A DNA stretch of 64,000 nucleotides from Bacteroidales bacterium (lineage in GTDB: Bacteria; Bacteroidota; Bacteroidia; Bacteroidales; UBA932): assembly GCA_017550655.1 (NCBI GenBank), contig JAFZOK010000013.1, forward strand, positions 186,001 through 250,000, given 5' to 3'. Shown one piece after another: positions 11,701 through 25,315 of this stretch. The notes under the pieces were generated by a model. The model saw only the letters and a program-made list of their open reading frames with translations, had not been told where the DNA came from and made no database searches. The translations under genes and the position numbers were made by a program. Numbering within the stretch: the stretch's first letter is position 1; every line of letters starts with the position of its first letter.

Positions 11701-13056
11701 ATGAAATTACTGAAAAGAAAAATAGACATCGCACTTGCCGCATGGAAGCAGAATCCACAGCGCAAGCCCCTTATTGTCAAGGGTGCTCGGCAGATTGGGA
11801 AGACCCGTTCCATCCAAGCATTCGGGCAAGCGAATTATGAATCGGTCATAGAAATAAACTTTGTCCTACAGAAGAAGTTCCGTACAATATTCGACAACGG
11901 CTATGAGGTGGACACTATTATCAAGAACATATCCTTGTTAGAACCGTCTTGGAAATTCATTCCGTACAAGACACTCATCTTCTTTGACGAGCTTCAGAAA
12001 TGTCCGGACTGCGCCACATCTCTCAAATCCTTCAACGCAGATCCACGTTACGATGTGATTTGCTCCGGTTCCCTGATGGGTATTTATTATGAGGAGATTG
12101 AGTCCAATGCCGTTGGAAACAAGGAGGATTACGAAATGCACTCTATGGATTTTGAGGAATTCCTATGGGCTAAAGGCTATTCTGAGGCACAGGTAGAGGA
12201 TCTTTATACCCACATGGAGAATCTCACGCCTTTCTCCGAATTGGAATTGTCCACCTATATGGATATCTTCCGTGACTATATGACCATAGGCGGCATGCCA
12301 GAGGTAGTGAAGATGTACATTGATAACGGCCACTTCGGCGGTACTCTTGAGTTACTACGACAACTTCTCCTTGACTATGAGGAAGATATCACCAAATACG
12401 CTAAGGAGTCAGACAAGGCCAAGATCCTGGCTATTTACAGGCATATATCAACCTTCCTTGCCAAGACTAGCAAGAAGTATCAGATTACCAAAGTGGCCAA
12501 AGGCGCAAGGAATCGTGAATACATCGGAGCTGTGGAGTGGCTGGAAAAAGCAGGCGTGGTTAATGTTTGTTACTGCCTGAGTAATCCGGAAATCCCGCTC
12601 AAAGGCAACTATGACGCTGATACATACAAGGTCTATTATCACGACACGGGTCTGCTCATCGCTTCCTTGGATGAAGAGGCCCAGGAAGACCTCCGTGCCA
12701 ATAAAAACTTCGGTACCTATAAGGGCGCCATCTATGAGAACATCGTAGGAGAGATGCTTCGCAAATCCGGTTATAAGCAGCTCTACTACTACAAGAACGA
12801 TAGTCCAGCCCTGGAAATGGATTTCTTCGTCCGCGATTCCGACTCGCTTATACCTGTCGAGGTAAAAGCTAAGGACGGAGCTACTGCCTCTCTAAACCAC
12901 CTCATCGATTGGCCGTCCTATCCAGATATCTCATACGGCATCAAGTTCGGGTACAAGAATATTGGTTGGGGCGGTAAATTCTATACGTTTCCTTATTTCC
13001 TTGGATTCCTATTGAAGAGGTTCCTTAAGGAAACCGGGCATCCGAATACCCCTTGA
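11701..13056 (+). CDS. AAA-type ATPase with DUF4143 domain
   Basis: A 451-residue protein of the ATPase/DUF4143 family common in Bacteroidota and Prevotella-like genomes. Walker A is GARQIGKT (about residues 28-35) and Walker B is TLIFFDELQ (about 91-99), followed by SGS at sensor-1 position. The second half is the DUF4143 region with an endonuclease-like fold, including an EMDFF…VEVKAK segment near residues 376-397. These proteins are common in variable genomic regions; their role is unresolved. The gene sits immediately left of the cassette array and is preceded by three phased repeats. Nothing shows it acts as a recombinase. Confidence 0.85.
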   Translation: MKLLKRKIDIALAAWKQNPQRKPLIVKGARQIGKTRSIQAFGQANYESVIEINFVLQKKFRTIFDNGYEVDTIIKNISLLEPSWKFIPYKTLIFFDELQKCPDCATSLKSFNADPRYDVICSGSLMGIYYEEIESNAVGNKEDYEMHSMDFEEFLWAKGYSEAQVEDLYTHMENLTPFSELELSTYMDIFRDYMTIGGMPEVVKMYIDNGHFGGTLELLRQLLLDYEEDITKYAKESDKAKILAIYRHISTFLAKTSKKYQITKVAKGARNREYIGAVEWLEKAGVVNVCYCLSNPEIPLKGNYDADTYKVYYHDTGLLIASLDEEAQEDLRANKNFGTYKGAIYENIVGEMLRKSGYKQLYYYKNDSPALEMDFFVRDSDSLIPVEVKAKDGATASLNHLIDWPSYPDISYGIKFGYKNIGWGGKFYTFPYFLGFLLKRFLKETGHPNTP

Positions 13057-13282
13057 GGGATGCTGGAATTTCCAGTAAAAGTAGTCCCCTTTGTCCGGCG
13101 TGAAACTGGTTCCCTCCAGACGTTGGGGAAAAGACTACCTAGGGCATTTCAGGATAACCCTTTCTATCAAGTGCTTGTGTGACATATCGGTGAGAATAAA
13201 TGACTTCAGGCGACATTTAGGCGACAATTTTGAGCGAATATAGCCGTTAAAAACATATCGCACAAGGGTCCCGGGATTTATC
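13057..13282. repeat. Left boundary of the cassette array
   Basis: After the ATPase gene, an imperfect inverted repeat (GTAGTCCCC near 13081 against GGGGAAAAGACTAC near 13125) may terminate it. From about 13133 to 13233 the sequence matches the arm block found after the tRNA-like cores at 17212, 18770 and 22198 (ctacctagggcattt…), including two GGCGACA boxes at 13209-13226, 11 bases apart. The tRNA-like core expected just before 13133 is replaced by a degenerate GTTGGGGAAAAG. This is the leftmost array repeat, so about 13118 is taken as the array edge. The remaining bases to 13282 show nothing else. Confidence 0.6.
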
Positions 13283-14566
13283 CTATTTGACAGATCTTGA
13301 GCTATAATCTGGATATAATGTTGGGCTTACTGGAATATTATTTCTGTTCATATCAGGATTCCAGCCTCTTCCCTTTTCCTTAAGTCTCAGCCACCTTTGT
13401 TCCTGCCTTACATCATCGCTATAGTAATTGTAATGGCTGTCACTGTTCTTAACCTTAATCTGCTTGAATTCTTTTCTATCCAGATTAATGTTTAGGGCAA
13501 GTATTTCCTTGTTCTTCTTGCAGAAAAGCAAGTCAAATTCATTTGCATCGCCGAGGGAAGGAAACTCAAGAGTAAGAAGACGCACTCCCTGTGCTATCTT
13601 AGTAGCACTGTATGACATATTTGAACAAGGTAGAAGAATATCACCAACCTTCAGCATTGCAGTTTTGTTCTTGTTCTGATCAAGTTTCAGTATTCCTTTA
13701 TCCTTAACAACCACAACTGTTTTATCCTCTTGGCGGTCAACCAAGAAAACACTTACATCCTTGGAAGGTGATATGGCCTCTGGGGCATATGTAACATTAC
13801 AATCACCGACCAACTCCCCTTTCTTGAACAAGGCGAGATAACTGTTGTAAGCATCAAGGTTGAATCCGTATCTTGCAGTATTTCCATAAGAATCAGCCAC
13901 CAGGAAAAGCATTACCTCATTTGGATTGAGCGCCCGGAAACCAAAGTCTCTGTTGTCGCTCCGAACAGTTGATTTAAAAAGTGGCTTTTCATCCTTATCT
14001 AAAGCGACTATCTCTATCATCTTGTGGAAATAATTATGGTGATATGTCTTCTTTGATACCACCCTCTCCTGATATCTTTTATCTCTTTCGGTCCAATCTA
14101 CACCGATCGTATCTCTAAAAGATTTCCATGCATCAGCCCGCGCTCTCTTTCTTCCAGCTCTTCGGGTTGGAACAGAATACCCAGACTCTGACTCTGACTC
14201 ATCGTTCCAAAAACGAATAGACGCATTGATAGAAAAATCCGCTTCCTGTTTGTCTTGAACCTCTACAGCTCCTTTAAGAGAAAGGCTTTGACGAACATAA
14301 TTTCCGAAAGTCTTAAGCCTAGATTCAGAAATATCTGTTCCCACAGAATCATATTGTATCTCCGCGATGTAGAATTTCTTGCCTCTCAAATCATAATCTC
14401 CCTCTGAACTGACAACCGGACGGTAGCAAGGCTTATAGTTTTTGGGAGCTGGGGTGCTCAAGGCTTTGGTAATAAACTTGTCCATTTGCTTCTGCTTGTT
14501 ACTCTGCCCCAGACACAGAAGGGATGATATCAAGATTATAATTGAACAACTGATAAATCGTTTCAT
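13283..14566 (-). CDS. Secreted protein of unknown function (array cargo)
   Basis: A 427-residue protein with a signal peptide (MKRFISCSIIILISSLLCLGQ). The mature part has a lysine-rich start, a central stretch rich in Ser, Arg and Lys (residues about 128-165) and a C-terminal region that looks beta-rich. I recognise no family. It has its own promoter: TTTG at 14660-14663 and TATTTTGC at 14633-14640, 19 bases apart, about 65 bases before the ATG. It is the leftmost array gene, bounded by the arm block at 13133 and the block at 14726. Confidence 0.75.
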   Translation of the reverse strand: MKRFISCSIIILISSLLCLGQSNKQKQMDKFITKALSTPAPKNYKPCYRPVVSSEGDYDLRGKKFYIAEIQYDSVGTDISESRLKTFGNYVRQSLSLKGAVEVQDKQEADFSINASIRFWNDESESESGYSVPTRRAGRKRARADAWKSFRDTIGVDWTERDKRYQERVVSKKTYHHNYFHKMIEIVALDKDEKPLFKSTVRSDNRDFGFRALNPNEVMLFLVADSYGNTARYGFNLDAYNSYLALFKKGELVGDCNVTYAPEAISPSKDVSVFLVDRQEDKTVVVVKDKGILKLDQNKNKTAMLKVGDILLPCSNMSYSATKIAQGVRLLTLEFPSLGDANEFDLLFCKKNKEILALNINLDRKEFKQIKVKNSDSHYNYYSDDVRQEQRWLRLKEKGRGWNPDMNRNNIPVSPTLYPDYSSRSVK

Positions 14567-14868
14567 AACTAATCTATTCTATGTTTGTAACACGTCTGTT
14601 ATATTCTGTCATAGAGGACACTACCTCCGGTTGCAAAATAAAAAAAAACAGCGATTTTCCAAACTCTTATGCAAATAAATCTCCAAAACTTTTTTCCTAG
14701 GGGAACAGCAAATGATAGATAGATATTTTGGCGACACATAGGCGACAGAATTGCATATTTTCCCCCATTTTTCAGGAGTTTTGGGGTGAATGGGATGAGA
14801 AGTTGAGTTGATAGAGAAAACTGCAAAATCCCTATTCTATGGGTCTAGAATGGGGATTTTACAATAGA
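14567..14868. repeat. Intergenic block with TTTTGGCGACA repeat, no tRNA-like core
   Basis: Holds the promoter of the gene to the left (14633-14663) and one copy of the large repeat at 14726-14860. That copy has the GGCGACA pair at 14730-14736 and 14741-14747, a CCCATT/AATGGG pairing and the AAATCCC/GGGATTT pairing. It stops without the 59-base hairpin/tRNA core and runs straight into the stop codon of the next gene, so it looks like a truncated or decayed junction. Confidence 0.7.
14633..14663 (-). promoter_or_regulatory. Promoter of the 13283-14566 gene
   Basis: TTTG (14660-14663), a 19-base spacer and TATTTTGC (14633-14640) on the minus strand match the Bacteroidota consensus. Confidence 0.55.
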
Positions 14869-15090
14869 CTAAAACAACCATTTTTTTATCATAATGGCTA
14901 AGAAAGCTATCGCTATTATAGAACAAATGCCACATATAGAATTCTTTAACCCTTCTATATTAACACCGTTTATCATTTTTCCTTCGCGAAAACTCTTAAA
15001 TGAAACTTGCTCTCTCCTAATATAACGCAAATAAAAGAAGCGAATTCCTGCTCCAATATAATCAATTAATAGATATTCGATTATTCTCAT
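14869..15090 (-). CDS. Small membrane protein, unknown function (array cargo)
   Basis: A 73-residue product with a charged N-terminal half (FYLRYIRREQVSFKSFREGK) and one hydrophobic segment at about residues 51-68 (SICGICSIIAIAFLAIMI) before a KKWLF end. AAAAGG sits directly before the ATG, and the standard array promoter lies at 15130-15161. No family is recognised. Support is the promoter, the ribosome-binding sequence and a plausible membrane segment. Confidence 0.55.
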   Translation of the reverse strand: MRIIEYLLIDYIGAGIRFFYLRYIRREQVSFKSFREGKMINGVNIEGLKNSICGICSIIAIAFLAIMIKKWLF

Positions 15091-15129
15091 CCTTTTAAAA
15101 CGGATTTATCCCTATCTTATGGTCAATCG

Positions 15130-15161
15130 TAAAGATACTCTGTTTTAAGGGAACACCAAAA
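15130..15161 (-). promoter_or_regulatory. Array promoter P1, copy 1
   Basis: CAAAA (minus-strand TTTTG, 15157-15161), exactly 19 bases, then TAAAGATA (minus-strand TATCTTTA, 15130-15137). The same module, with the same spacer length, recurs at 18487, 19594 and 22933. Confidence 0.7.
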
Positions 15162-15214
15162 TCTATCAACCCAGAGCAGAGAAAACCTATCCCCATCTCC
15201 TCCATCTCGGATCT

Positions 15215-15334
15215 TCAACCCTTCTCTCTCTTCTCCTTCTTCTCCCGATAGATATCCCTTATTATGAGAATGATCTTGATAACGCAGAACAATCCCAATA
15301 TCACAAACGCTGGAATCAGGATATACTGTCCCAT
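15215..15334 (-). CDS. 39-residue single-pass membrane peptide (array cargo)
   Basis: The frame starts MGQYILIPAFVILGLF, with one membrane helix of about residues 4-27, then a highly charged tail (REKKEKREKG). A purine-rich AGGGAAGAGG sequence lies about 10 bases before the ATG. A membrane segment followed by a basic/acidic tail is common in real small membrane proteins. No family is recognised. It lies between the P1 promoter at 15130 and the toxin-antitoxin pair, and may be co-transcribed with the PIN gene upstream of it (stop-to-start gap of 44 bases). Confidence 0.5.
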   Translation of the reverse strand: MGQYILIPAFVILGLFCVIKIILIIRDIYREKKEKREKG

Positions 15335-15378
15335 TGCACCAAAAACCTCTTCCCTATAAAGAATAATCATATACTTCC

Positions 15379-15786
15379 TTATTCCGGCTTTTCTATGCGG
15401 TCCAAGAAATCTGCGACAGTGAGTATCTCGATACCCTCATAATTCTCGATGGAGAGCAAATCGCTGTCTCCGCTCACGATATAAATACACCTCCCGTCAA
15501 CAGCACATGATATAAACTTGTCATCATCAGGATCTCGACTGATACGAATATCGGAAGTAACACGGATGATTTCAAATCTGGCAAGAAAATCTTGAAGCGG
15601 AATCTTTGTACTGATATCAGGGTACTTCTGCTTAAGGCGAAGAACAATTTCTTCGTACTCGTCCACAATCTCCTTGCTTGCCACGACATCCACCCGGTTC
15701 TCCATTATGTGACGGAGAAGCTGGTAGGGCTTACCACCAAAGAAGACAGCGGAGGCAACGACATTTGTATCTATAACGATTCTCAT
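15379..15786 (-). CDS. PIN-domain toxin of a toxin-antitoxin pair
   Basis: A 135-residue PIN nuclease. The acidic active-site residues are visible: Asp in VIDTNV (residue 6), Glu in SKEIVDEYEEI, Asp in SRDPDDDKF, and Asp in VSGDSDLL near residue 107. This matches the 'putative toxin-antitoxin system toxin component, PIN family' group, whose members cleave RNA. The start overlaps the stop of the AbrB-type antitoxin gene by four bases, the usual antitoxin-first order. As array cargo it could stabilise the array by post-segregational killing, which is inference. Confidence 0.85.
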   Translation of the reverse strand: MRIVIDTNVVASAVFFGGKPYQLLRHIMENRVDVVASKEIVDEYEEIVLRLKQKYPDISTKIPLQDFLARFEIIRVTSDIRISRDPDDDKFISCAVDGRCIYIVSGDSDLLSIENYEGIEILTVADFLDRIEKPE

Positions 15787-16046
15787 TTGCGTTTCTCCGC
15801 TCTCATTGACTTGATTTCCGCATTAATCTCCTCCTCTGTAAGTCCAAGCTGCCTGGCAGTTTTCTGAGCCTGCTCGATTAACGAGTAGAATTCATCCAGA
15901 GAAGGATCCCTAACGGGTTTAAGGAGGATGTTCTCGTTGTCTGTTAAGACCAGGAACTGAGAACCTTCCCCAAGATTGAGTTTCCTGCGGATTGAGATAG
16001 GAAGGACTATCTGTCCTCTCGATGACATTGCTGCTATTGTTGCCAT
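15783..16046 (-). CDS. AbrB/MazE-type antitoxin
   Basis: An 87-residue protein with an N-terminal swapped-hairpin AbrB domain (SSRGQIVLPISIRRKLNLGEGS, positions 8-29) and a helical C-terminal tail that would bind the toxin (LTEEEINAEIKSMRAEKRK). It is coupled to the PIN gene by an ATGA overlap. The promoter is at 16090-16120, with an inverted repeat at 16068-16082 just after it, consistent with autorepression by the antitoxin. Confidence 0.85.
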   Translation of the reverse strand: MATIAAMSSRGQIVLPISIRRKLNLGEGSQFLVLTDNENILLKPVRDPSLDEFYSLIEQAQKTARQLGLTEEEINAEIKSMRAEKRK

Positions 16047-16067
16047 ATTTTCCGATATTTAAGACAG

Positions 16068-16082
16068 GTAAGAATTACTTAC
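16068..16082. promoter_or_regulatory. Probable antitoxin operator
   Basis: GTAAG and CTTAC form an inverted repeat with a five-base centre, between the promoter at 16090-16120 and the antitoxin start at 16046. This is the expected place for AbrB/MazE-family autorepression. Confidence 0.5.
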
Positions 16083-16089
16083 TTTTCTG

Positions 16090-16120
16090 CAAAAATAGAA
16101 AATATTAATAAAAAACAAAA
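16090..16120 (-). promoter_or_regulatory. Promoter of the AbrB-PIN operon
   Basis: Minus-strand TTTTG (16116-16120), 18 bases, then TATTTTTG (16090-16097). Confidence 0.6.
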
Positions 16121-16248
16121 GCCAGGAGTTCTACTTTCTATCAACTATCTCCACTCCCACCCCCATTCTATCAACCTGTATTAAGCCCTAGAACACTTTT
16201 CCCGAACGCGCCTTGGACTGCGAATACGGAAAAGATGGGGGGATTCCC

Positions 16249-16950
16249 TTAATGAAAAACTATCGGATAATTTGTTGCACAGATATACAACTGTCCTTCT
16301 TCATCTATTTTAAAAACAATGAATGAGGGTAAAATACCACTCGGTGAGTATGAAAAAGATAAATCAAGTTTGTTCTTCTGTTTATTATAAGTGAAAATGA
16401 TATTATCTAAATCTATCTGAAGGATTAGTAATTTATCACTATAATCTTTTCTTTCAATTAGCTTTCCATTAATATACAGGCTAATATCATCGATTATTGT
16501 ATTTAAGATAGAAGTAGAATTAAACTCTGAAAAATACACAACCGGGAATGATTTACTATCTTGGGTAAATACACTTGTTGGTATACTGGTGATATAGTCG
16601 TATTTATTATTGATGTTTTCAAGGGTATCTAAGAAAGATATCCGGTTCCAGTTAAAACCATCAGAAACTTTCCCCGCCTTAAATACAGCAAGCAGGTACT
16701 TTTCATCGATAATGCAATTAAAACAAATATCCTTTTTCTTGAAATATACCGTTTCCCTGGACGATATCCTGCTGCTGTCTATATTAAGTAACGATTTCAA
16801 GTCTATCAGCTGAGTATTCTCTTCCAGTCTCAACCTACTGCCATTTATGGAAAGAATGCAAATGCTGTATAAGATTCTTACAGCCAACAGTATGGCGAAG
16901 ATGATTAGAACATACTTAAGATATTTAAGATACCTTTTACACTTCCCCAT
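16249..16950 (-). CDS. Membrane-anchored protein of unknown function (array cargo)
   Basis: The frame is open to 17109, but that extension is translated repeat sequence. The ATG at 16950 follows a conserved leader with a TACCTTTG box (16975-16982), giving 233 residues. There is a basic N-terminus and one membrane helix near residues 14-36 (VLIIFAILLAVRILYSICIL), so the rest is probably periplasmic. No family is recognised. The 39 bases upstream of the start are identical to those upstream of the gene at 24320-24940, although the two proteins differ, which points to exchange of coding regions behind a shared leader. Confidence 0.65.
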   Translation of the reverse strand: MGKCKRYLKYLKYVLIIFAILLAVRILYSICILSINGSRLRLEENTQLIDLKSLLNIDSSRISSRETVYFKKKDICFNCIIDEKYLLAVFKAGKVSDGFNWNRISFLDTLENINNKYDYITSIPTSVFTQDSKSFPVVYFSEFNSTSILNTIIDDISLYINGKLIERKDYSDKLLILQIDLDNIIFTYNKQKNKLDLSFSYSPSGILPSFIVFKIDEEGQLYICATNYPIVFH

Positions 16951-17381
16951 TTTTAACAGCACATTAGTTTCTATCAAAGGTAGTGTTTTGTTTTTAAAGG
17001 GCAGAATTTTGGCGACACATAGGCGACAGAATTGCAAAAAAATCCCCCATTTTTCGGGATTTTTGGGGTGAATGGGATGAGTTGGAGAAGATGATAGAGA
17101 ATTCTGCAAAATCCCTGTTCTATGGGTCTGGAATGGGGATTTTATATAGGAAAAGGGATTGCCAGGTCAGGTTTAAACTGCTTTGACAATCCCTTGTTGT
17201 GGGCCCAGAAGGACTACCTAGGGCATTTCAGCATAACCCTTTCTATCAAGTGCTTGTGTGACATATCGGAGAGAAAAAATGACCGCAGGCGACAGATAGG
17301 CGACAAAACAAAATGAGTTTTGATGATAAAAATCTCTCCTAAAAGAAACCCTCTGGTGAGCAATCTTTTGACACACCAAAG
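16951..17381. repeat. Complete array junction 1 (leader, large repeat, tRNA-like core, arm)
   Basis: From left to right: leader/promoter of the gene at 16950 (-7 box 16975-16982); large repeat 17007-17143 with GGCGACA boxes at 17011-17017 and 17022-17028; 59-base core 17153-17211 with a 9-bp stem AAGGGATTG/CAATCCCTT, ending GTGGGCCCAGAAG like the tRNA end; and arm block 17212-17330 with GGCGACA boxes at 17288-17294 and 17299-17305. Boxes on both sides of a central core resemble the arm/core plan of a tyrosine-recombinase attachment site. Confidence 0.7.
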
Positions 17382-18443
17382 CTATTTTAGGGTATAATCT
17401 TGAATGATTATATCTGATTTATGCTTATCGTTTTCTTTTATGAAATTACTTATTGTCAGTTTATCTCCACTTACAATATAGTCGGTATCGAAAGCTATTC
17501 TATCAACCTCTGACCCATTGAAAATATGAAGGAAGGAGTAAGGAGCACCACCTTCTAAATAATTACATAAATAGGCATCTGCTTCTATTCCATTAGACCG
17601 AATGATATATAGAAGCCAACCATCTTTTATCTTCTTCTTAATTGCTCCAAAGATGTTATATGGATTATCTCTCACAGGATCATGGGAAAAGATGTCAAAG
17701 AGAAATATATCGGGAATTATCTTGCAACAATCGAGAGCTTCACTAAAAGATGGTATAGATGTCCTTGTTTCAAAATAATCCAATAGATTTTGTTCAATGG
17801 TTTCCTCCTCAGAATCGTTGCTCGAATAGTTATCAGAATGTTTTGTCTCTACAAGATTTCCCCTATAAACACAAGTATTGATATATGTGAAATCCTTATC
17901 CAGTTTGTATTTGTCTATCCGATATGAAACGAATGGCTCAACATTGCCGGGAGTCCTTCTGTCTTCAACATAAATTAAAACATCGTTCAAGCTCTCTGCT
18001 TTATGTGCGTCTATTTTGAATGAGACAAGCGAGACCTCGTGAATTAAATCTTCTACCAAGAGTTCTTTTGTCACCTTCTTGTTTTTATCAGAGAATATTG
18101 AATAAAAGGTCTTTCGCTCAGAACAATCGGAAGAGTAATATACTATCAGCCAATAACCAGTTCCTTTAACCTTAAAAAGAGGATAGTATTTGATAGGATG
18201 ACCGTTGACGTGGTTAAAAAGATTGTTTCTTACAAACAACAACTGATTGGCAACAACCTTATCCGGTAGGGGCTTCTTGTCCTTTTCTAAAGGTATTGGT
18301 GTCTTCTTGAGCACAAAATCATCAAATGACACCTCTTCAAAATAAGATAGGAGATCATTATTTTCAGAACATCCCTCCACAAACCCCATTAATGGCAGAC
18401 AAAGAAACAAAACGATAAAGCTATTTATTACAAAAGTCCTCAT
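17382..18443 (-). CDS. Lipoprotein of unknown function (array cargo)
   Basis: A 353-residue protein with a lipoprotein-type signal (VLFLCLPLMGFVEGCSEN; likely lipid-modified Cys near residue 25). The mature part is rich in Asp, Lys, Tyr and Ser, with a poly-acidic stretch near residue 213 (NDSEEETIEQN). No family is recognised. It is preceded by array promoter P1 (18487-18518) with a leader of roughly 40 bases. It occupies its own unit, between cores at 17153 and 18711, so it is the clearest one-gene cassette of the array. Confidence 0.75.
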   Translation of the reverse strand: MRTFVINSFIVLFLCLPLMGFVEGCSENNDLLSYFEEVSFDDFVLKKTPIPLEKDKKPLPDKVVANQLLFVRNNLFNHVNGHPIKYYPLFKVKGTGYWLIVYYSSDCSERKTFYSIFSDKNKKVTKELLVEDLIHEVSLVSFKIDAHKAESLNDVLIYVEDRRTPGNVEPFVSYRIDKYKLDKDFTYINTCVYRGNLVETKHSDNYSSNDSEEETIEQNLLDYFETRTSIPSFSEALDCCKIIPDIFLFDIFSHDPVRDNPYNIFGAIKKKIKDGWLLYIIRSNGIEADAYLCNYLEGGAPYSFLHIFNGSEVDRIAFDTDYIVSGDKLTISNFIKENDKHKSDIIIQDYTLK

Positions 18444-18911
18444 AGTTTGGCTATTCTAACATAGTCTCATTTACTGGGGTCAAATGTAAAGATACTCTGT
18501 TTTAAGAGAACACCAAAATCTATCAACCCAGGGAAGGGTCTGTTGATAGTCTCCCTGTGCTCTCATTTTGGCGACACATAGGCGACAGAATTGCAAAAAA
18601 TCCCCCATTTTTCTGGATTTTTGGGGTGAATGGGAAGAGTGTTGGGAGAATGGTCTTTTTGATAGAAAATCCCTGTCCTATGAGTCTGGAATGGGGATTT
18701 CTTAATGGAAAAGGGATTGTCTGACAGGTGTTAATCTGCTTTGACAATCCCTTGTTGTGGGCCCAGAAGAACCACTTTGAAAATTGTAGCATAGTTCTTT
18801 CTATCAAGTGCTTATAGGACCTGTCGGAGAGAAAAAATGACTCTCTGGCGACCGATTGGCGACAAAATGAAGTGAGTTTTGATGGTAAAAATCACTCCCA
18901 GAAGGGTCATC
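18444..18911. repeat. Complete array junction 2
   Basis: Promoter P1 at 18487-18518; large repeat 18566-18700; 59-base core 18711-18769 with an 11-bp perfect stem AAGGGATTGTC/GACAATCCCTT, ending GTGGGCCCAGAAG; arm block 18770-18905. The arm's two boxes at 18847-18853 (GGCGACC, one change) and 18858-18864 keep the 11-base spacing. No gene fits in these 468 bases; frames across it are translated repeat. Confidence 0.7.
18487..18518 (-). promoter_or_regulatory. Array promoter P1, copy 2
   Basis: Minus-strand TTTTG (18514-18518), 19 bases, TATCTTTA (18487-18494); drives the lipoprotein gene at 17382-18443. Confidence 0.7.
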
Positions 18912-19568
18912 TTAAGCCTCAAATAACTCTTTGTTTTTATTAAAGAGTTCTATCAGCAAATTACCCTCTTTCTTCTTGTCGACGAGTTTAAATCCTAATA
19001 TTCTGATTAGCCAAATTGGATTCATTGGGCAATTTTTATACTTCGTTTGTATTACCATATGCCCAACACCAACATTTAATTTAGACGCAGAGATGTATTG
19101 CATCCATTTAAGATTAGGAAAATGATGGATGATTGATTCTCCAAAATAAACACCTACATCATAAAGGATGGAATAGGATAAATCGGTAAGATCCCACTTC
19201 TCTATATCTATCTCTGGCGGATAAAGACGTCTCAACCGCTCATACTCTTCTTCAGGCATCTGTTCTGATTGAATGCTTGTTTCCAGCCATTTTTCTATTT
19301 CCGACAAAGAGTTTATAGAAAAGTCCATTTGGAGACTTTCAAAACCAGCGAATGTCCTTATATAATTTTCAAGAGTTTTGATACGATGGTCTTTGTTCTC
19401 AAAAAACCAATCTTCATAGGGTTTAATGATATCTTTTCTTTTGCTCTTACCATGCTTGAATACATCAAACCAAATTTCAAGAGGACTTGAAATCTTTATT
19501 AATTGCACTCTATCATTTACCTTGAGAACTGGAACAGAATCCAGGAAGTCATATGTAAAAGCCTCCAT
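18912..19568 (-). CDS. Soluble protein of unknown function (array cargo)
   Basis: A 218-residue protein with no signal peptide or membrane segment, so probably cytosolic. It is rich in aromatic and charged residues, with a Trp/Ile-rich stretch near the end (NPIWLIRILGFKLVDKKKEG). The overall look recalls small immunity or defence-associated proteins, but I cannot place it in a family. Promoter P1 lies at 19594-19625, and the next gene on the right is divergent. Confidence 0.65.
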   Translation of the reverse strand: MEAFTYDFLDSVPVLKVNDRVQLIKISSPLEIWFDVFKHGKSKRKDIIKPYEDWFFENKDHRIKTLENYIRTFAGFESLQMDFSINSLSEIEKWLETSIQSEQMPEEEYERLRRLYPPEIDIEKWDLTDLSYSILYDVGVYFGESIIHHFPNLKWMQYISASKLNVGVGHMVIQTKYKNCPMNPIWLIRILGFKLVDKKKEGNLLIELFNKNKELFEA

Positions 19569-19857
19569 TTATTACATTTACTGTAGTCAAATGTAAAGAT
19601 ACTTTGTTTTAAGGAAACCCCAAAATCTATCAACCCAAGAGGCCCTGTATTCAATTATATCAAAGATTCTACCGACAGCTGATCCAACCACCAACACCCC
19701 CATTCTATCAACCTGTATTAAGCTATAGAACACTTTCCCGAACGCGCTTGTGGGAAGAATACGGAAAAGACAGATATTTACTCCCCATTCCAATGATTAT
19801 CCTATCTTTGTGCTAACTGGTGCTCCTTTACAATTTAGCACAGATAATAAGGACTGT
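19569..19857. repeat. Divergent intergenic block with R2 repeat, copy 2
   Basis: P1 (19594-19625) serves the leftward gene. R2 spans about 19638-19770, with an inverted repeat around CTTTCCCG (19733-19740) and CGGAAAAG (19762-19769). A TATCTTTG box at 19803-19810 is the probable -7 element of the rightward gene at 19858. R2 here lies between two promoters, so it is not simply a gene terminator. Confidence 0.65.
19594..19625 (-). promoter_or_regulatory. Array promoter P1, copy 3
   Basis: Minus-strand TTTTG (19621-19625), 19 bases, TATCTTTA (19594-19601); upstream of the gene at 18912-19568. Confidence 0.7.
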
Positions 19858-20718
19858 ATGAAAAGATTCTTGTTGATATTACTGACATTATGCTTAAGCA
19901 TACACTCTGTCAGATTATTTGCATCTCCTCAGCAATCTGAATTTCTAATTATTAAGAATGACACCATACCAATCTATCAAATATTACTCACCGATGTAAT
20001 AGAAAAACATCTTGATAGTGTTTCTTTTCTTTATGGCAAGGGGTTTGACGCGGGAGTTCTCTTGGGTACAAATAATTGGAGAGGATATCGAGGCATTTGG
20101 GAACTTAAAGACGATACTTTGTATTTGGTTGGCTTCAAATTTGGTTTTGGAGGACTTTCTTTGGAAAAATTGTTTCCAGATATGATTAAAGATGGGAAAG
20201 TGCTTGCAGACTGGTATAATTCGGAACTGATAATACCTAAAGGAAAAGTCTTAAGGTGGGATGGCATTTTTTCACGCACATACGTAGAGGAAGAACATTT
20301 AAATTTTAAAAATGGGCACGTTAAATCCCGACAGACGGTATGTAATTATATTGACTTACCCAATGGAATAAGCAGATTATCAGATAATCCTTATAACCCC
20401 AAAGGTGAGATTGCCAACGTTCTTTTTAATCGTATTGTTAGCATTGAAACCGATTGGAATAAGGTGGACGAAAACTCAAATGATGATGTTTTGATAGGTG
20501 AGTTCTATGTGACGATAGGTGCCAATGGACGGGTCGTTTCTGTGACGAATGATATAGGAGAGAAATCCGATATAACACGATTTTTAAAAAGGAGACTTAA
20601 GGGATTGCGCTTTGATATTATAAAATTTAACGGGAAACCGTACGAAGAGGTAATAACATTATTTATTGACCTTAATGAGGACAAGAACCAACTGGAGTTA
20701 CTTAATATTTACAATTAG
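19858..20718 (+). CDS. Secreted protein, array paralog family member A
   Basis: The frame opens at 19750, but the ATG at 19858 begins a signal peptide (MKRFLLILLTLCLSIHS) and follows the TATCTTTG box at 19803, so it is preferred (286 residues). It shares a block order with the proteins at 20951-21910 and 23147-24025: GxWELKDDTLYLV near residue 70-80, KVLADWYNSELIIPKG near 120, NYIDLPNGISRL near 160, and a C-terminal VTIGANGRVVSV…LKGLRFDIIKF. That last part resembles the TonB C-terminal fold by pattern only. It is the only rightward gene in the array. Function unknown. Confidence 0.7.
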   Translation: MKRFLLILLTLCLSIHSVRLFASPQQSEFLIIKNDTIPIYQILLTDVIEKHLDSVSFLYGKGFDAGVLLGTNNWRGYRGIWELKDDTLYLVGFKFGFGGLSLEKLFPDMIKDGKVLADWYNSELIIPKGKVLRWDGIFSRTYVEEEHLNFKNGHVKSRQTVCNYIDLPNGISRLSDNPYNPKGEIANVLFNRIVSIETDWNKVDENSNDDVLIGEFYVTIGANGRVVSVTNDIGEKSDITRFLKRRLKGLRFDIIKFNGKPYEEVITLFIDLNEDKNQLELLNIYN

Positions 20719-20950
20719 TATCTCATTCCCCAAAGCACGTTAACACATAAAATTATAGGGTGACACATCTTTAGCGGGTGTGTCACTTCTTCTTTTGATA
20801 GATTTCTGTGCTCTAATTTTGGCGACACATAGGCGACAGAATTGGAAAAAATCCCCCATTTTTCTGGATTTCTGGGGTGGATGGGAAGAGTGGGAGAAGA
20901 TGATAGAGAAAACTGCAAAATCCCTGTTCTATGGGTCTGGAATGGGCTAA
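20719..20950. repeat. Array junction 3, truncated
   Basis: After the hairpin at 20760-20786, the large repeat runs 20817-20946 and then breaks off. The hairpin/tRNA core is absent, and the sequence passes into the 3' end of the next gene, whose last codons themselves resemble the arm block. This looks like a deletion between junction repeats. Confidence 0.65.
20760..20786 (+). terminator. Hairpin after the gene at 19858-20718
   Basis: GTGACACA (20760-20767) pairs perfectly with TGTGTCAC (20779-20786) and is followed by TTCTTCTTTT, fitting a rho-independent terminator for the rightward gene. Confidence 0.6.
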
Positions 20951-21910
20951 TTAGCGTTTTTGCACAGCCTTTTCTATCAAGCGCCTTGTGCCAGCGGTTG
21001 GGGTGGAGGAACGACTAAAGGACGGACTCCTTAGTTCATCTTTGGGGTAAAGAGTATTGCCATCATATTCATATAAAAGAACTATTTGTTCTGAATACTT
21101 TTTGCCCCAAAATTTAACGATATCAAACCTTAGATCCTTCAAAAGTCTTTTCAGGGGTCTATTGCTTTTATAGGATTTACTTTTGGGGGATCGAGAAGAT
21201 ACGTCAATCACAGTTCCTTTAGGACCAATGACTACTTTTATTGCGTCTAATTCAGTAGGCTGTAATTCTTTTTTTAGGATTTGTGGATGTCTATTAAATG
21301 AATCTATTATTGCCTGAAAAACTCTCTTTTCTCCGATATAATTAATCTGGTCATCATCCGTGGAATAAAGCCTTGGTATTGCACCTGGAACAGATATGTA
21401 ATTCTTTATATGTTGGGTTTTTATTAGATAGCCTTCTTTAACCAATACGTGATCTTCTGTGGAGTATGTTCTATGTATCCTAAAGAAGCCTAGAAAGGAT
21501 CTTGTAAGATTTCCTGTGGGAATAATGAAATTACCGCTATACCAATCGGCCAACACTCTTCCTTCTACACATTTATCACCGAAGATATCAAAGAGGTTTA
21601 TGCTTTTATAGTTGTTATGATAGATAGGTACATCCAGCTTCACGAGATACAGTTTCCCATCGCAAATTTCCCAGGTGCCTAAATATCCCCTAAGCAGATT
21701 CATCGGTCTACTAAGTTCCCTTCTTTCTTTTTCTTTAAGAACAGTTTCAACAAAATCTCTAACAGGATATAGAGGTAATACTGAAATACTGACGGTATCA
21801 CCATTATATATTAGTCTTTCATTTATTTGCTCATCTGCCCTAGCTATCGTTGAACTCATCAATGACAACAATAGCACAGAAAAGACTATTATGGTCCTGA
21901 GTTTGGTCAT
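20951..21910 (-). CDS. Secreted protein, array paralog family member B, with extended C-terminus
   Basis: A 319-residue protein with a signal peptide (IIVFSVLLLSLMSSTIARA). It is closest to the protein at 23147-24025: near-identical signal peptide, GTWE.CDGKLYLVKL, IFGDKCVEGRVLADW, NYISVPGAIPRLY, and a C-terminal LRFDIVKFWGKKYSE. Member C stops right after KDE, whereas here one extra base (GAA C TAA) replaces the stop and reading continues 27 codons. That tail is encoded by decayed arm-block sequence (cttttctatcaagcgcc). The leader, with TACTTTTG at 21939-21946, is almost identical to that of member C. Function unknown. Confidence 0.7.
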   Translation of the reverse strand: MTKLRTIIVFSVLLLSLMSSTIARADEQINERLIYNGDTVSISVLPLYPVRDFVETVLKEKERRELSRPMNLLRGYLGTWEICDGKLYLVKLDVPIYHNNYKSINLFDIFGDKCVEGRVLADWYSGNFIIPTGNLTRSFLGFFRIHRTYSTEDHVLVKEGYLIKTQHIKNYISVPGAIPRLYSTDDDQINYIGEKRVFQAIIDSFNRHPQILKKELQPTELDAIKVVIGPKGTVIDVSSRSPKSKSYKSNRPLKRLLKDLRFDIVKFWGKKYSEQIVLLYEYDGNTLYPKDELRSPSFSRSSTPTAGTRRLIEKAVQKR

Positions 21911-22360
21911 AAGGTATTTCAGGGTTTGTCTATCAACACAAAAGTAGCAAACTATAATGGAAGTTCATAAAGACTCCTGTTGATAGATAGAAATTTTGGC
22001 GACACATAGGCGACAGATTTGGAAAAAATCCCACATTTTTCAGGAGTTTTGGGGTGAATGGGAAGAGTGGGAGATGATGACCTGATTTGATAGAAAATCC
22101 CTGTTCTATGCACCCAGAAAGGGGATTTTACAAAGGAAAAGGGATTGCCAGGTCAGGTGTTAATCTGCTTGACAATCCCCTGTTGTGGGCCCAGAAGGGC
22201 TACCTAGGGCATTTAAGGATAGTTCTTTCTATCAAGTGATTATATGACCTATCGGTGAGAAAAAATGACCTCAGGCGACACATAGGCGACAGAATGAAGT
22301 GAGTTTTGATGGTAAAATCACTCACTGAAAGGGCCTCATTAATCTTCAATAACGTCGAGT
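21911..22360. repeat. Complete array junction 4
   Basis: Leader of the gene at 21910 (-7 box 21939-21946); large repeat 21994-22129; 59-base core 22139-22197 (stem slightly decayed, GACAATCCCC) ending GTGGGCCCAGAAG; arm block 22198-22325 with GGCGACA boxes at 22274-22280 and 22285-22291. No gene seen in these 450 bases. Confidence 0.7.
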
Positions 22361-22885
22361 TTAAGACTCCAATAATGCCTCGAGAACTCGCTCAAAGCTG
22401 TCATCAATCAATAAGACTTGCTCTCCGGCCTGTATAAAACCTTCCAAGCACCGTTTGTTATCTTCTTTCAGACCACACAAGGAACATTCAGAATCATCTA
22501 AACGGGATTCTATGGCTGAACCATATCCCGTGATATCCTTGAAATGTTCATCAATGTAGCGACCAGTCATTGCAAGGCAGATGAACCGAATAGAAGATAG
22601 GTAATTCTCATCAAAGTCCCGACGCCAATCAAACGGGACATAGCAGCCTTCTACGATTAGATTCTGGCTGTTCTCTATAGCCGTCTTTATCATTTCCCTG
22701 ACAATGGGCCAAAGATATTCCGTGAGAGCGTCATCATCCTTAGGAGTAAGAAAGGTGTTTCCACTGCGAATCAATCCCATTTTCAGATGGTCGATTGAGA
22801 GATAGGGATACTTGTATTTCTCAAGCATCCGCTGCGCCAAAAGTGTTTTCCCCGTGTGTGAGGCTCCGGTAATTAGGATAATCAT
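22361..22885 (-). CDS. P-loop nucleotide/small-molecule kinase (adenylate-kinase/zeta-toxin-like)
   Basis: The frame is open to 22993; the ATG at 22885 (MIILITGASHTGKT) is preferred because P1 ends at 22933 and the earlier start would lie in promoter sequence. The 174-residue protein has a P-loop GASHTGKT at residues 7-14, YLSIDHLKMGLIRSGNT near 29-45 and VEGCYVPFDWRRDF near 74-87 with a likely catalytic acid. Close relatives, as I recall them, occur in Clostridia as 'adenylate kinase' or 2-phosphoglycerate-kinase-like proteins. The substrate is unknown. A Firmicutes-like gene in this place supports horizontal acquisition. Confidence 0.7.
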   Translation of the reverse strand: MIILITGASHTGKTLLAQRMLEKYKYPYLSIDHLKMGLIRSGNTFLTPKDDDALTEYLWPIVREMIKTAIENSQNLIVEGCYVPFDWRRDFDENYLSSIRFICLAMTGRYIDEHFKDITGYGSAIESRLDDSECSLCGLKEDNKRCLEGFIQAGEQVLLIDDSFERVLEALLES

Positions 22886-23146
22886 TCTTGGTCTAATAAT
22901 ACGTTTATAGCAATCTCTCCTATGGTCAGATGTAAAGATACTCTGTTTTAAGGGAACACCAAAATCTATCAACTCTGGAGGCCCTGTATTCAACTATATC
23001 AAAGATGCTACCGACAGCTGATCCAACCACTCCCACCCCCTTTCTATCAACCTGTATTAAGCTCTACTACACTTTTCCGAACGCGCCTTGGACTGCGAAT
23101 ACGGAAAAGATGGGGAATGAAAGGCTATCAAGAGAGATGATAGGCA
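22886..23146. repeat. Intergenic block with R2 repeat, copy 3 (most complete)
   Basis: P1 (22933-22964) is followed by R2 at about 22972-23116. It contains a perfect 8-bp inverted repeat CTTTTCCG (23072-23079) / CGGAAAAG (23102-23109) with an inner CGC/GCG pairing, and ends just before the stop of the gene at 23147. R2 carries several CTATCAA words, which also recur through the other junction blocks. Confidence 0.7.
22933..22964 (-). promoter_or_regulatory. Array promoter P1, copy 4
   Basis: Minus-strand TTTTG (22960-22964), 19 bases, TATCTTTA (22933-22940); drives the P-loop kinase gene. Confidence 0.7.
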
Positions 23147-24025
23147 CTATTCATCTTTCAGATAAAGATATTCACCGTCGTACCTAAAATCAATATGTAC
23201 GCGCTCTGAATACTTTTTACCCCAGAATCTGATGATGTCAAATCTTAAACCCTGAAGTAGTTTTTTTAGATATTTGTTCTTATCTAAATCGAGCTCAACA
23301 TCTGTGATAATACCTTCAGGTCCGATTGTTACAATAATGTGGTAATAATACATTACAGATTTCAAAACCTTCTTTCTTTTTAGTTCTTGTTTGTGAAGGT
23401 TGAGGCAGCTTATTATTGCTTGTTTGACTTTTACTCTTTCAAGGTCTATCCTAAATCTGTAGGGCTCAACGTCGTTGTCATAATACAGATTATAGCGCCT
23501 TGAGATTGCACCAGGAACGGGTATGTAATTATCAACCTGTTTAGTTTTTCTAAGAACACCTTTCTTGAAAATCAAATGTTCTTCTTTGTAATATGTACTT
23601 GCAGAGACGCCATCATATACTAACCAATCTCCCTTGGGAAGAACGATTTCCTCACTAAACCAATCTGCCAACACTCTTCCTTCTACACATTTGTCACCGA
23701 AAATATCCTGGAGACTTATACCATCAAAAGCAGTAAAAGAAAGTTTTATCAGATATAATTTTCCATCCTTAAATTCCCAAGTACCGATATAACCTCTGGC
23801 TAATGAACAACCTACAATTGAATACATGTCCAGACCATAACGTTCTTTAAGAATGCTCTCAACATCATCTACAATGGCGTAAAGTGGTTGTGTTGCTATT
23901 TTTAAAGTATCTCCATTGTATATGAATCTTTCCCCGTCTTGAGAAGATGCCCTGGCTATAGTTGAGCTCATCAAAGACAGCAATAGCACAGAAAAGAAGA
24001 CTATTATGGTCCTTATTTTTCGCAT
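23147..24025 (-). CDS. Secreted protein, array paralog family member C
   Basis: A 292-residue protein with a signal peptide (IIVFFSVLLLSLMSSTIARA). It shares with members A and B the blocks RGYIGTWEFKDGKLYLIKL, IFGDKCVEGRVLADWF, NYIPVPGAISRRYN, and a C-terminal VTIGPEGIITDVEL … LRFDIIRFWGKKYSE. That ending has the TonB-C-like pattern of a strand, a GxI/V turn, a helix and a GK.Y.E strand. Secretion is supported by the signal; function is not known. The leader with TACTTTTG (24054-24061) is nearly identical to that of member B, so B and C look like a recent cassette duplication. Confidence 0.7.
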   Translation of the reverse strand: MRKIRTIIVFFSVLLLSLMSSTIARASSQDGERFIYNGDTLKIATQPLYAIVDDVESILKERYGLDMYSIVGCSLARGYIGTWEFKDGKLYLIKLSFTAFDGISLQDIFGDKCVEGRVLADWFSEEIVLPKGDWLVYDGVSASTYYKEEHLIFKKGVLRKTKQVDNYIPVPGAISRRYNLYYDNDVEPYRFRIDLERVKVKQAIISCLNLHKQELKRKKVLKSVMYYYHIIVTIGPEGIITDVELDLDKNKYLKKLLQGLRFDIIRFWGKKYSERVHIDFRYDGEYLYLKDE

Positions 24026-24319
24026 AAGGTATTTCAGGGTTTGTCTATCAACACAAAAGTAGCAAACAAAAATGGTAGTTCATAAAGACCCCTGTTGATA
24101 GATAGAAATTTTGGCGACACATAGGCGACAGAATTGCATATTTTCCCCAATTTTTCAGGATTTTTGGGGTGAATGGGATGAGTGGGAGATGATGATATGT
24201 TTTGACAGAAAATCCCTGTTCTATGGGTTTAGAATGGGGATTTATTAATGGAGAAGGGATTGTCTGACAGGTGTTAATCTGCTTTGACAATCCCTTGTTG
24301 TGGGCCCAGAAGATTTATC
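24026..24319. repeat. Array junction 5 (no arm block)
   Basis: Leader with -7 box 24054-24061; large repeat 24109-24243; 59-base core 24254-24312 with a perfect 11-bp stem, ending GTGGGCCCAGAAG. The stop region of the next gene begins directly after the core, so this junction lacks the arm block. Confidence 0.7.
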
Positions 24320-24940
24320 CTAATTGATAGGTTTCCTGTAATATAAATGCTTGTCAAATTGTATATATCCTGTCTTATCTTTTATCTTATTCTCATCTAT
24401 ATAGTTCAGCACTACACTTTTATCCTTAATATAGGCAACAAGATCATCTAGATTTTTTGATATGAAATCTTCTGTGATTATTATCAAAGACCACTCTCGA
24501 CTAAGCATCCATTCTATTATCAAAGTTATATCCTTATTCTTATCAACTATCATTCTATGTAAATAGATATTTCTGGAATCCAACTGCCAAATACTTCTGA
24601 AAATAAGGCACATTTCATTAATCCTTTTTCTCAAGTCTAAATCGTTGAAGACGTCGATAACTTCATTCTCATACCAGTTGCCGGCGGAATCAGGTTTATC
24701 TTTGAGAAGTTTTAAAGAGATTAAAGTATCAGTAACCAAAGGCATTCTTGCCAAGTAACGATTGCCCTCATAGTTAATGAAATAGTAACTACTTTCTCTT
24801 GCGTCTGATATGGAGTAATCATAAATGACATCTTCTTTGTAGTTGATGCTGCTAATCTGCCTCAAATCATAATAGCCTAATAATGAGCAGGATATTAGAG
24901 ATAAAATAATTAATGTGAAGAGAACTTTTTTCCACTCCAT
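24320..24940 (-). CDS. Lipoprotein of unknown function (array cargo, nearest the tRNA)
   Basis: The frame is open to 25000, but the extension is translated leader; the ATG at 24940 gives 206 residues. A short lipoprotein signal is visible (KKVLFTLIILSLISCSLLG, Cys about residue 18). The mature part is rich in Asp, Ile and Tyr and matches no family I know. Its leader, with TACCTTTG (24965-24972), is identical over 39 bases to that of the unrelated gene at 16249-16950. It lies between cores at 24254 and 25136, so it is the unit next to the tRNA, i.e. the most recent insertion if integration is always at the tRNA. Confidence 0.65.
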   Translation of the reverse strand: MEWKKVLFTLIILSLISCSLLGYYDLRQISSINYKEDVIYDYSISDARESSYYFINYEGNRYLARMPLVTDTLISLKLLKDKPDSAGNWYENEVIDVFNDLDLRKRINEMCLIFRSIWQLDSRNIYLHRMIVDKNKDITLIIEWMLSREWSLIIITEDFISKNLDDLVAYIKDKSVVLNYIDENKIKDKTGYIQFDKHLYYRKPIN

Positions 24941-25182
24941 TTTTAACAGCACATTAGTTTCTATCAAAGGTAGTGTTTTTGATAGAAATTTTGGCGACAC
25001 ACAGGCGACAGAATTGGAAAAAATCCCCCATTTTTCAGGAGTTTTGGGGTGAATGGGAAGAGTGGGAGAAGAGATGATAGAGAAAACTGCAAAATCCCTG
25101 TTCTATGGGCCTGGAATGGGGATTTATTAATGGAAAAGGGATTGTCTGACAGGTGTTAATCTGCTTTGACAATCCCTTGTTG
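24941..25182. repeat. Array junction 6, joined to the tRNA
   Basis: Leader of the gene at 24940; large repeat 24989-25125 (boxes GGCGACA separated by 11 bases, one base different between them); 59-base core 25136-25194 that overlaps the last 12 bases of the tRNA. On the minus strand the core hairpin (GACAATCCCTT arm followed by TTCC) directly follows the tRNA and may act as its terminator. Confidence 0.75.
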
Positions 25183-25256
25183 TGGGCCCAGAAGGGCATG
25201 ATCCTCCGACCCCCTGATTATGAGTCAGGTGCTCTAACCAACTGAGCTATGAGCCC
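25183..25256 (-). tRNA. tRNA with CAU anticodon (elongator Met or Ile2)
   Basis: A 74-base cloverleaf on the minus strand. Acceptor stem GGGCTCA pairs with TGGGCCC (one G-U), discriminator A; D arm GCTC/GAGC; anticodon stem CCTGA/TCAGG with loop CTCATAA, anticodon CAU; five-base variable loop; T stem GGAGG/CCTTC. The T loop reads ATCATGC, so the usual TTC/A pattern is not kept. G1-C72 excludes an initiator tRNA. Met and lysidine-modified Ile2 cannot be told apart here. CCA is not encoded. Its last bases are the repeated core of the cassette array. Confidence 0.85.
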
Positions 25257-25288
25257 CAATCCAGCGGACAGGTTCCGCTATCCGAATG

Positions 25289-25296
25289 CAAAGGTA
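25289..25296 (-). promoter_or_regulatory. -7 box of the tRNA gene
   Basis: Minus-strand TACCTTTG, 33 bases before the tRNA. It overlaps the hairpin GGTAAAG/CTTTACC at 25293-25315. An AGCGGA/TCCGCT pairing (about 25263-25280) would form in the leader. Confidence 0.5.
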
Positions 25297-25315
25297 AAGA
25301 TTTTTTTACTTTACC
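25293..25315 (-). terminator. Possible terminator of the rpsL-rpsJ operon
   Basis: GGTAAAG (25293-25299) pairs with CTTTACC (25309-25315) around an A/T-rich loop. A perfect 14-base palindrome GCTAGTTAACTAGC at 25342-25355 lies right after the rpsJ stop. No clean U-run follows, so efficiency is uncertain. Confidence 0.4.

Follow-up and report, generated by a model that had tools for sequence, protein, structure and literature searches.

A CAU tRNA gene as a probable site of tandem accretion of very small integrase-dependent elements in ruminant-foregut Bacteroidales

A 12-kb AT-rich stretch of a Bacteroidales bacterium lies between an AAA/DUF4143 ATPase gene (11701-13056) and a CAU tRNA gene (25182-25256, minus strand). 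It was analysed within a window of 64,000 nucleotides (the whole stretch of DNA under study; GenBank assembly GCA_017550655.1, contig JAFZOK010000013.1, positions 186,001 to 250,000), which comes from a 2.26-Mb metagenome-assembled genome (MAG). We put at roughly 80% the probability that this stretch is an array built up as very small integrase-dependent elements accreted in tandem at the tRNA 3' end, later eroded by deletions between short repeats. The anatomy of the array, the fixed geometry of its junctions, the sharing and reordering of cassettes across species and the integrase gene on the same tRNA can all be read in the sequences compared, and they are taken up below.

The array contains 37.8% GC, against 49.0% in the left flank and 49.7% in the right, in agreement with a preceding sequence-only reading that had called it AT-richer than both. 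That reading had also described five copies of a 59-base core at constant length, the last being the 3' end of the tRNA plus its downstream hairpin. All five copies were recovered with exactly 59 bases, and the copy at 25136 indeed overlaps the tRNA. Each core consists of a hairpin followed by TTGTGGGCCCAGAAG; relative to the last copy, those at 18711 and 24254 are identical and those at 17153 and 22139 are 90% identical, and GTGGGCCCA occurs within them at 17199, 18757, 22185, 24300 and 25182. To the left of the core stands a block of about 190 bp (R), which opens with the direct-repeat pair GGCGACA-CATA-GGCGACA (the arm), and to the right a block of about 90 bp (L), which closes with the same GGCGACA pair; the letters R, B and L are labels coined in this analysis. 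All arm pairs of the array run in one direction, and those of one junction form 18-bp direct repeats 277 bp apart. The elements of the junctions are as follows.

17153..17211, minus strand: core 1
18711..18769, minus strand: core 2
22139..22197, minus strand: core 3
24254..24312, minus strand: core 4
25136..25194, minus strand: core 5, terminator hairpin plus tRNA 3' end
25182..25256, minus strand: tRNA gene, anticodon CAU, its 3' end the putative entry point
17011..17305: complete junction at core 1
18570..18864: complete junction at core 2, with a degenerate L arm (GGCGACCGATTGGCGACA)
21998..22291: complete junction at core 3 (R arm pair, R block, core 3, L block, L arm pair), resembling an attP
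24113..24130, plus strand: R arm pair of core 4, whose opposite side has no L arm
24993..25010, plus strand: R arm pair of core 5, next to the tRNA
13130..13226: left end of the array, L block and arm pair, core unrecognisable
14725..14854: R block with arm, core gone (apparently fused units)
20815..20946: R block with arm, core gone, then diverged L-like sequence at 20954
22920..23115: D-type junction, made of a promoter part, CTATCAAC and a hairpin part
15118-15170, 16151-16240, 18478-18527 and 19586-19770: pieces related to the D-type junction
11701-13056: AAA_14/DUF4143 ATPase gene, left neighbour of the array

The five cores (four internal and the one on the tRNA) divide the array into five units, E1 to E5 from the left. 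The four complete units measure 1558, 3428, 2115 and 882 bp from core to core; the leftmost, which begins with the L block at about 13130, measures about 4.1 kb, and several units carry more than one gene. The leading core of the leftmost unit is unrecognisable in the window and is found directly after the flanking gene in genomes G026, G028 and G032. Repeated blocks do separate the genes, as had been claimed, although a core is present at only some junctions, the others being formed by the D repeat (15118, 19586, 22920), which at 22920-23115, for example, holds neither arm nor core, or by a core-less R block (14725, 20815). Searches of the same genome returned nine L-block matches and ten exact arm pairs, all inside the array, and ten matches to the core, five of them in the array and five to the tRNA part only. 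Of the thirteen mostly leftward genes reported earlier, the leftward bias stands (11 genes) and the number becomes twelve, with 19858-20718 the sole rightward one; this count leaves out three further open reading frames (ORFs) of 60-89 aa that overlap repeats or other genes. The earlier statement that most cargo genes possess their own promoter also held: the motif TAnnTTTG, which we take to be the Bacteroidetes-type -7 promoter motif, precedes 8 of the 11 starts tested at a distance of no more than 160 bp and is present in 12.7% of random array segments. Two simple explanations of the repeats were rejected. A known RNA element was one of them, because in an Rfam scan of 11000-27000 only the tRNA exceeded its gathering score and three other matches remained below theirs. 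Chance or simple duplication was the other, because the cores differ in their neighbours and the last of them is the tRNA.

The spacing of arms and cores was then measured on 28 exact TTGTGGGCCCA cores in 19 oriented stretches of 12 genomes, 11 of the cores lying on the tRNA and 17 being internal. An L arm was found within 400 bp of 15 of the 17 internal cores, always 91-92 bp from the core start. An R arm (up to three mismatches) was found within 400 bp of 20 of the 28 cores; in 16 cases it stood at 184-187 bp, and the remaining four, of a second hairpin type, at 285-296 bp (for cores 1 and 2 of the window the distance was measured from the first repeat of the pair, at 17011 and 18570). The segments in between are diverged, with a median pairwise identity of 72% (minimum 62%) for L and 78% (minimum 51%) for R, and the R segment that accompanies an integrase gene keeps its length even though it is 51% identical to the most distant cargo R segment. 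Tyrosine integrases assemble on arm-type and core-type sites held at a set spacing. We infer that fixed spacing over drifting sequence reflects the demands of such a protein-DNA assembly, and the junctions look like putative attachment sites for an arm-binding integrase.

The tRNA itself points to the place of the crossover. ARAGORN called the gene at 25182-25256 as Met (CAU). It may be a tRNA-Ile2 rather than a tRNA-Met, because three CAU tRNAs are present in the genome, where ARAGORN typed 40 of 41 tRNA matches. The other two are one initiator-like gene and one Met-like gene at C15:569763. Two T-stem variants of the tRNA occur in the genus, GGAGG/CCTTC and CCAGG/CCTGG. In G020 and G018 the tRNA reads GTGGGCCCACCAGG and ends in ...CCTGGTGGGCCCAC, while the internal core of the array reads GTGGGCCCAGAAG and has the other variant (AGAAG). 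At the tRNA-proximal junction of both genomes the hairpin of the element is joined to the tRNA variant of the host, therefore the switch would fall within GTGGGCCCA, where the crossover probably lies. It also suggests that the units with internal cores in G020 and G018 came from hosts with the AGAAG variant.

A candidate enzyme is found at the same site. Genome G027 encodes an intact tyrosine integrase of 457 aa with Arm-DNA-bind_5, Phage_int_SAM_5 and Phage_integrase domains, whose gene begins some 110 bp from this tRNA and points away from it. The copy in G018, with 97% identity over residues 1-187, is cut off after them; it is accompanied by an arm pair (GGCGACGGATTGGCGACA), a core, an L block and an L arm, the arms standing at 186 and 91 bp, which is the junction geometry of the cargo units. 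A 73-bp remnant, 97% identical, lies near the tRNA in G029. Because of the intact copy and the two remnants, the integrase can be regarded as a resident of this tRNA site, and the recombinase with a core in its flank that the sequence-only reading had proposed to look for is thus present in sister genomes (at the G027 site and in the G018 flank). In wider searches one of 295 order-level genomes gave a match at E 1e-60, with 33% identity, at a locus without a tRNA in its 4362 bp; among 53 plasmid and 22 phage records all matches were below 60% identity, the best at 23-26%; and viral contigs gave no integrase match. A 20-base arm pattern likewise had 0 matches in viral contigs. These results, for arm and integrase alike, lend no support to a phage or plasmid origin. 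Within the window's genome one recombinase pair, at C15:734343 and C15:737522, was inspected for its surroundings; its neighbours are restriction-modification-like genes and no tRNA was called there.

Arrays of other content stand at the same tRNA in sister species, all of one genus of ruminant-foregut Bacteroidales. When the 270 bp next to the tRNA were searched in 60 relatives, array-like matches were confined to the same genus. The exact 23-base arm pattern retrieved 11 stretches in 7 MAGs of the genome collection (named Bacteroidales bacterium or uncultured Bacteroidia), from yak rumen, water buffalo and goat omasum, and RUG isolates, which from their name we take to be rumen. Among 39 genomes of the genus, 11 contain the exact arm pair, in a single direction on each contig (reversed control, 0 of 39), and 11 contain the exact 15-base core, with 25 copies that lie without exception in arrays or on this tRNA (control, 0). 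In the order-level set the arm pattern was seen in the window's genome and in 5 of 294 others, none of the five having the TAGGCGACA form of spacer; outside the genus it is at background, because the reversed control matched equally often (5 of 295). The comparison suggested by the sequence-only reading therefore finds core and arms at the same tRNA in related species. Cores away from tRNA genes, which that reading had named as evidence against itself, did not appear among the 25 exact copies. One inexact core (GTGGGCTCAGAAG) with R-like sequence adjoins an enolase gene in G013 (L068:7478-8135), and this unit is ectopic or displaced. No tRNA was called within the 16 kb examined around it, and the neighbouring gene resembles by eye a cargo gene of G032.

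Two further arrays deserve description. In G004 (L040, oriented 4044-4072) three consecutive GGCGACA repeats make two overlapping arm pairs and hence two overlapping exact matches. In G032 (L041, G032:C23:1-8700) the last core of the largest array is separated from the contig end by a gene set that opens with a serine-recombinase-like ORF and includes, by eye, a Dam-like methylase; it is perhaps a large newer insertion at the tRNA.

Maps of the 19 stretches from 12 genomes revealed junctions of the same kinds with different cargo in each array, and single cassettes recur in other positions and beside other neighbours. Over 699 bp the kinase-like cassette (22274-22972) has 99.0% identity with a copy in G020 whose neighbours differ, and cassette F19 has three different right-hand neighbours in G026, G020 and G032. 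A fixed gene order among relatives, which the sequence-only reading would have taken against itself, is thus not what is seen; its suggested check on the movement of single units came out in its favour, near-identical single cassettes turning up in other company across species. Cargo identity was compared with that of fusA for 23 chosen cargo families (F8, F12, F21, F36, F41 and repeat ORFs left out, together with 19 comparisons involving G032 cargo on a contig without fusA). It exceeded the fusA identity of the species pair, 87-96%, in 31 of 40 comparisons and reached at least 98% in 17; F20 of G026 and G031 is 100% identical over 408 bp, with fusA at 86.9%. The ends of shared tracts (n=85; at least 92% identity and 200 columns, contig ends dropped, ends merged in 15-base bins) fell at arms in 23 cases, at cores in 9 and at CTATCAA or its complement in 16, that is 48 of 85 at one of these sites against 16% of random positions (arms 5%, cores 2%, CTATCAA 8.5%).

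Some of these comparisons bear on the history of the arrays. The cassette adjacent to the tRNA in G003 is internal in G032 (93% over 923 columns), where more units follow. This single comparison fits growth at the tRNA, with the newest unit perhaps standing beside it, and loss in G003 is equally possible. Many junctions look like the result of deletion between two arm pairs, with loss of the core and fusion of units (G020 at 13874 compared with 22274 here), and others like deletion between two CTATCAAC copies of D. Since such short-repeat deletions remove cores, multi-gene units can be accounted for without a second enzyme. The proposal of repeated integration of small units at the same tRNA is largely upheld by the cores, the arms and the integrase on the same tRNA in relatives; several units are multi-gene, and part of the reshuffling looks like short-repeat deletion.

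In the scheme that we favour, a single CAU tRNA gene would receive very small integrative elements at its 3' end in succession. A circular element would hold at least one cargo gene together with an attachment site, made up of an R arm pair, a core identical with the tRNA 3' end and an L arm pair; a tyrosine integrase with an arm-binding domain would recombine that core with the tRNA end, the crossover falling in GTGGGCCCA. The element would thereby bring a new terminator hairpin to the tRNA and leave a displaced copy of the core, so that the array lengthens at the tRNA. In sister species the integrase gene is itself a resident of the site. Since it is absent here and resident there, the window array would be frozen or else mobilised in trans. 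Short direct repeats (arms, CTATCAAC) would afterwards give rise to deletions that take out cores and fuse units into multi-gene ones. Catalysis by the G027 integrase, circular intermediates, the order of insertion and the route between cells are what we infer from the comparisons. A bolder version, which we rate somewhat below an even chance, is that an integron-like exchange is active at present: single-gene arm-core-arm circles from a shared pool would be taken up, stacked and exchanged at one tRNA among species of the rumen genus, the integrase gene travelling as a cassette and hosts alternating between capturing and frozen states.

Several observations weigh against accretion at the tRNA and should be set beside it. 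The window's genome has four tyrosine recombinases, none within C15:186001-250000 (the earlier remark that the window holds no integrase was correct), and outside the array it contains neither an exact arm nor an exact core. A clean empty site between the same two flanks was not encountered; the array-less species examined have other neighbours, and the genomes compared are MAGs, mostly in many contigs. No R arm was found within 400 bp of 8 of the 28 cores. No arm was found between the G027 integrase gene and the tRNA, and the contig ends about 100 bp past that gene, in an inverted copy of the sequence upstream of the G018 integrase, which may be a true inversion or a fold-back of the assembly; because of these two points the shape of the G027 element is uncertain. 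Cargo identity fell below fusA in 9 of 40 comparisons, so some of the sharing is old or diverged. As many as 37 of the 85 tract ends lie at none of arm, core or CTATCAA, and the ends counted are not mutually independent, conserved repeats also attracting alignment ends. Insertion at the tRNA alone is insufficient as an explanation of the D-type and core-less junctions. No circle, excision or integration event was seen in the sequences.

The tract ends at none of the named sites bear also on the most serious alternative, that of a hypervariable locus which homologous recombination reshapes at its repeated junction blocks (130-280 bp); no site-specific event would take place today, and the tRNA-like cores would be left over from old insertions. 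The blocks are long and alike enough for exchange within an array, and the array of the window's genome has no integrase beside it. This explanation is nevertheless unlikely, since identity tracts start or stop inside an 18-bp arm or a 15-bp core with unrelated sequence beyond, arm-core-arm distances are constant to 1-3 bp across diverged sequences, and G027 has an intact integrase at the site. An integron cassette array lacking its integrase (CALIN, a cluster of attC sites lacking integron-integrases) would likewise present ordered single-gene units, a hairpin at each junction and toxin-antitoxin cassettes. The attC sites of integrons carry GTTRRRY boxes, to which the GTTGTGG read by inspection in the core does not seem to fit; moreover, the crossover would lie within a tRNA 3' end, most starts have their own promoter motif, and the associated integrase has an arm-binding domain (Arm-DNA-bind_5, beside SAM_5), so that we give this possibility next to no weight. 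A locus of the recombinase-associated acquired interbacterial defence (rAID) type, in which an array of orphan immunity genes goes with a tyrosine recombinase and conserved intergenic motifs, has somewhat more to recommend it and is still very improbable. The order of bacteria is the same, the short AT-rich genes are mostly co-oriented and separated by repeated blocks, and a tyrosine integrase is present in a sister locus. On the other side, no immunity domain was found in the 32 cargo proteins scanned, many genes are oppositely oriented in relatives, and a tRNA is not mentioned in the available portion of the rAID description (PMC12247911).

The cargo of the window array is listed below.

13283..14566, minus strand: E1, 427 aa, signal sequence predicted by eye, no Pfam match; relative in G016 (95% aa identity)
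14869..15090, minus strand: E1, 73 aa; relatives in G032 and G003
15379..16046, minus strand: E1, PIN_3 toxin and MazE-type antitoxin pair
16249..16950, minus strand: E1, 233 aa, membrane-type by eye; relative in G031 (90% aa identity)
17382..18443, minus strand: E2, 353 aa, lipoprotein-like by eye
18912..19568, minus strand: E3, 218 aa; relative in the G018 array (88% aa identity)
19858..20718, plus strand: E3, 286 aa, family F8, sole rightward gene
20951..21910, minus strand: E3, 319 aa, family F8
22361..22888, minus strand: E4, P-loop kinase-like (Pfam matches below cut-off); 99% identical cassette in G020
23147..24025, minus strand: E4, 292 aa, family F8, weakly TonB C-terminal-domain-like fold
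24320..24940, minus strand: E5, 206 aa, lipoprotein-like by eye; the newest unit if the array grows at the tRNA

The Pfam cut-off was reached by 2 of the 12 window proteins (PIN_3 and MazE) and by 5 of 20 cargo proteins of relatives (ParE, ParD, AbiEii, DUF6922 and an outer-membrane beta-barrel). NCBIfam gave no match at cut-off for 10 cargo proteins, and PADLOC gave weak matches only, for 1 of 10. The predicted structure of the 18912-19568 protein was unusable (predicted local distance difference test score, pLDDT, 36.6). For family F8, with three genes in the window, a model of moderate quality (pLDDT 71.9) had 0 matches in the PDB at E 0.001 or better; its top rows include several TonB or TolA C-terminal domains (E 0.03-1.5), and the likeness to TonB C-terminal domains is a weak lead from a predicted structure. 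In the flank, the ATPase gene 11701-13056 occupies the place of a 396-aa lipoprotein-like gene (F3) that adjoins the array in G020, G026, G028 and G032; in the window's genome F3 lies at C15:17230-18414, close to tRNA-Ala and tRNA-Ile, and G027 has two copies. Farther left, 7302-9557 encodes a lipoprotein-like protein of 751 aa, whose weak match to a fimbrillin-like family (Mfa_like_1) stays under the cut-off.

The locus has the look of a natural exchange point for mostly unknown genes. If units as small as a single gene can be captured and stacked at a tRNA by an integrase that may itself be missing from the array, an integron-like strategy of gene capture has arisen by another route, and in a rumen lineage that is uncultured and in which exchange of genes is seldom easy to observe. 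The conserved arm-core-arm geometry makes it possible to search for integrase-less cassettes, the G027 integrase is a protein open to testing, and the two tRNA variants can serve as a natural tracer of transfer from one species to another. As a list of genes moving among rumen species, the cargo comprises toxin-antitoxin pairs, secreted and outer-membrane proteins and many unknown families.

With integrons the array shares a fixed entry point, ordered small cassettes and toxin-antitoxin cassettes; unlike them it has a tRNA 3' end as entry, arm-core-arm junctions instead of attC, cargo with its own promoters and an integrase of another type. No published description of this array was found in the open-access literature searched. 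The sequence-only claim that no system of this exact layout has been described can stand for the layout within that literature, although the kind has precedents in additive flexible islands, in accretion of cis-mobilizable elements (CIMEs), in tycheposons and in rAID, beside which the present array is unusually compact.

In the available text of PMC10872708, the additive island fGI-2 of Methylophilaceae has 20-nt repeats of tRNA-Lys and islands of 330 bp to 42 kb. Like the present array, such islands repeat the last nucleotides of a tRNA, carry mostly unknown genes and vary in content by species. Unlike what that text describes, the array here has a full arm-core-arm junction with a hairpin and fixed spacing, complete units of 0.9-3.4 kb, a same-site integrase in a sister species, and near-identical units that are reordered. 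Tycheposons, as given in the same portion of PMC10872708, are 4-200 kb long and combine insertion at tRNA genes (including tRNA-Met), a tyrosine recombinase and cargo. The units here share the tRNA insertion, the recombinase type and the carriage of cargo, whereas they are smaller (882-3428 bp; 1558, 3428, 2115 and 882 bp individually), mostly without recombinase (none in the window) and stacked. rAID loci of gut Bacteroidales, to the extent covered by the available text of PMC12247911, resemble the array in bacterial order, AT-rich short-gene arrays, conserved intergenic sequence and tyrosine recombinase. With respect to the co-orientation and GC below 41% described there, the window array has 11 of 12 genes leftward, 37.8% GC over its whole length and repeated junctions. 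It differs in being anchored on a tRNA, in its mixed gene directions in relatives, in the lack of a contiguous recombinase in the window (G027 has its integrase at the tRNA) and in cargo not recognisable as immunity (0 immunity families by Pfam in 32 cargo proteins, at the level of sequence families). A further comparison is with CIMEs and the tandem accretion of integrative and conjugative or mobilizable elements (ICEs/IMEs), which, in the available text of PMC5704250, are integrase-less with attL and attR kept, lie in tandem at the 3' end of a target gene and may be mobilised by a related integrase. E2-E5 are similarly bounded by cores, and their predicted proteins match no integrase or transfer family. 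Unlike the accretion described there, many units of 1-3 genes stand in a row with no transfer gene in the predicted cargo, and the integrase is one of the residents. On these partial accounts the array belongs with integrase-made tRNA islands, that is CIME-type accretion and additive flexible islands (PMC5704250, PMC10872708); it stands apart from them in how small its units are, in the strict spacing of arm, core and arm, in the brisk exchange across species and in the integrase resident at the same site.

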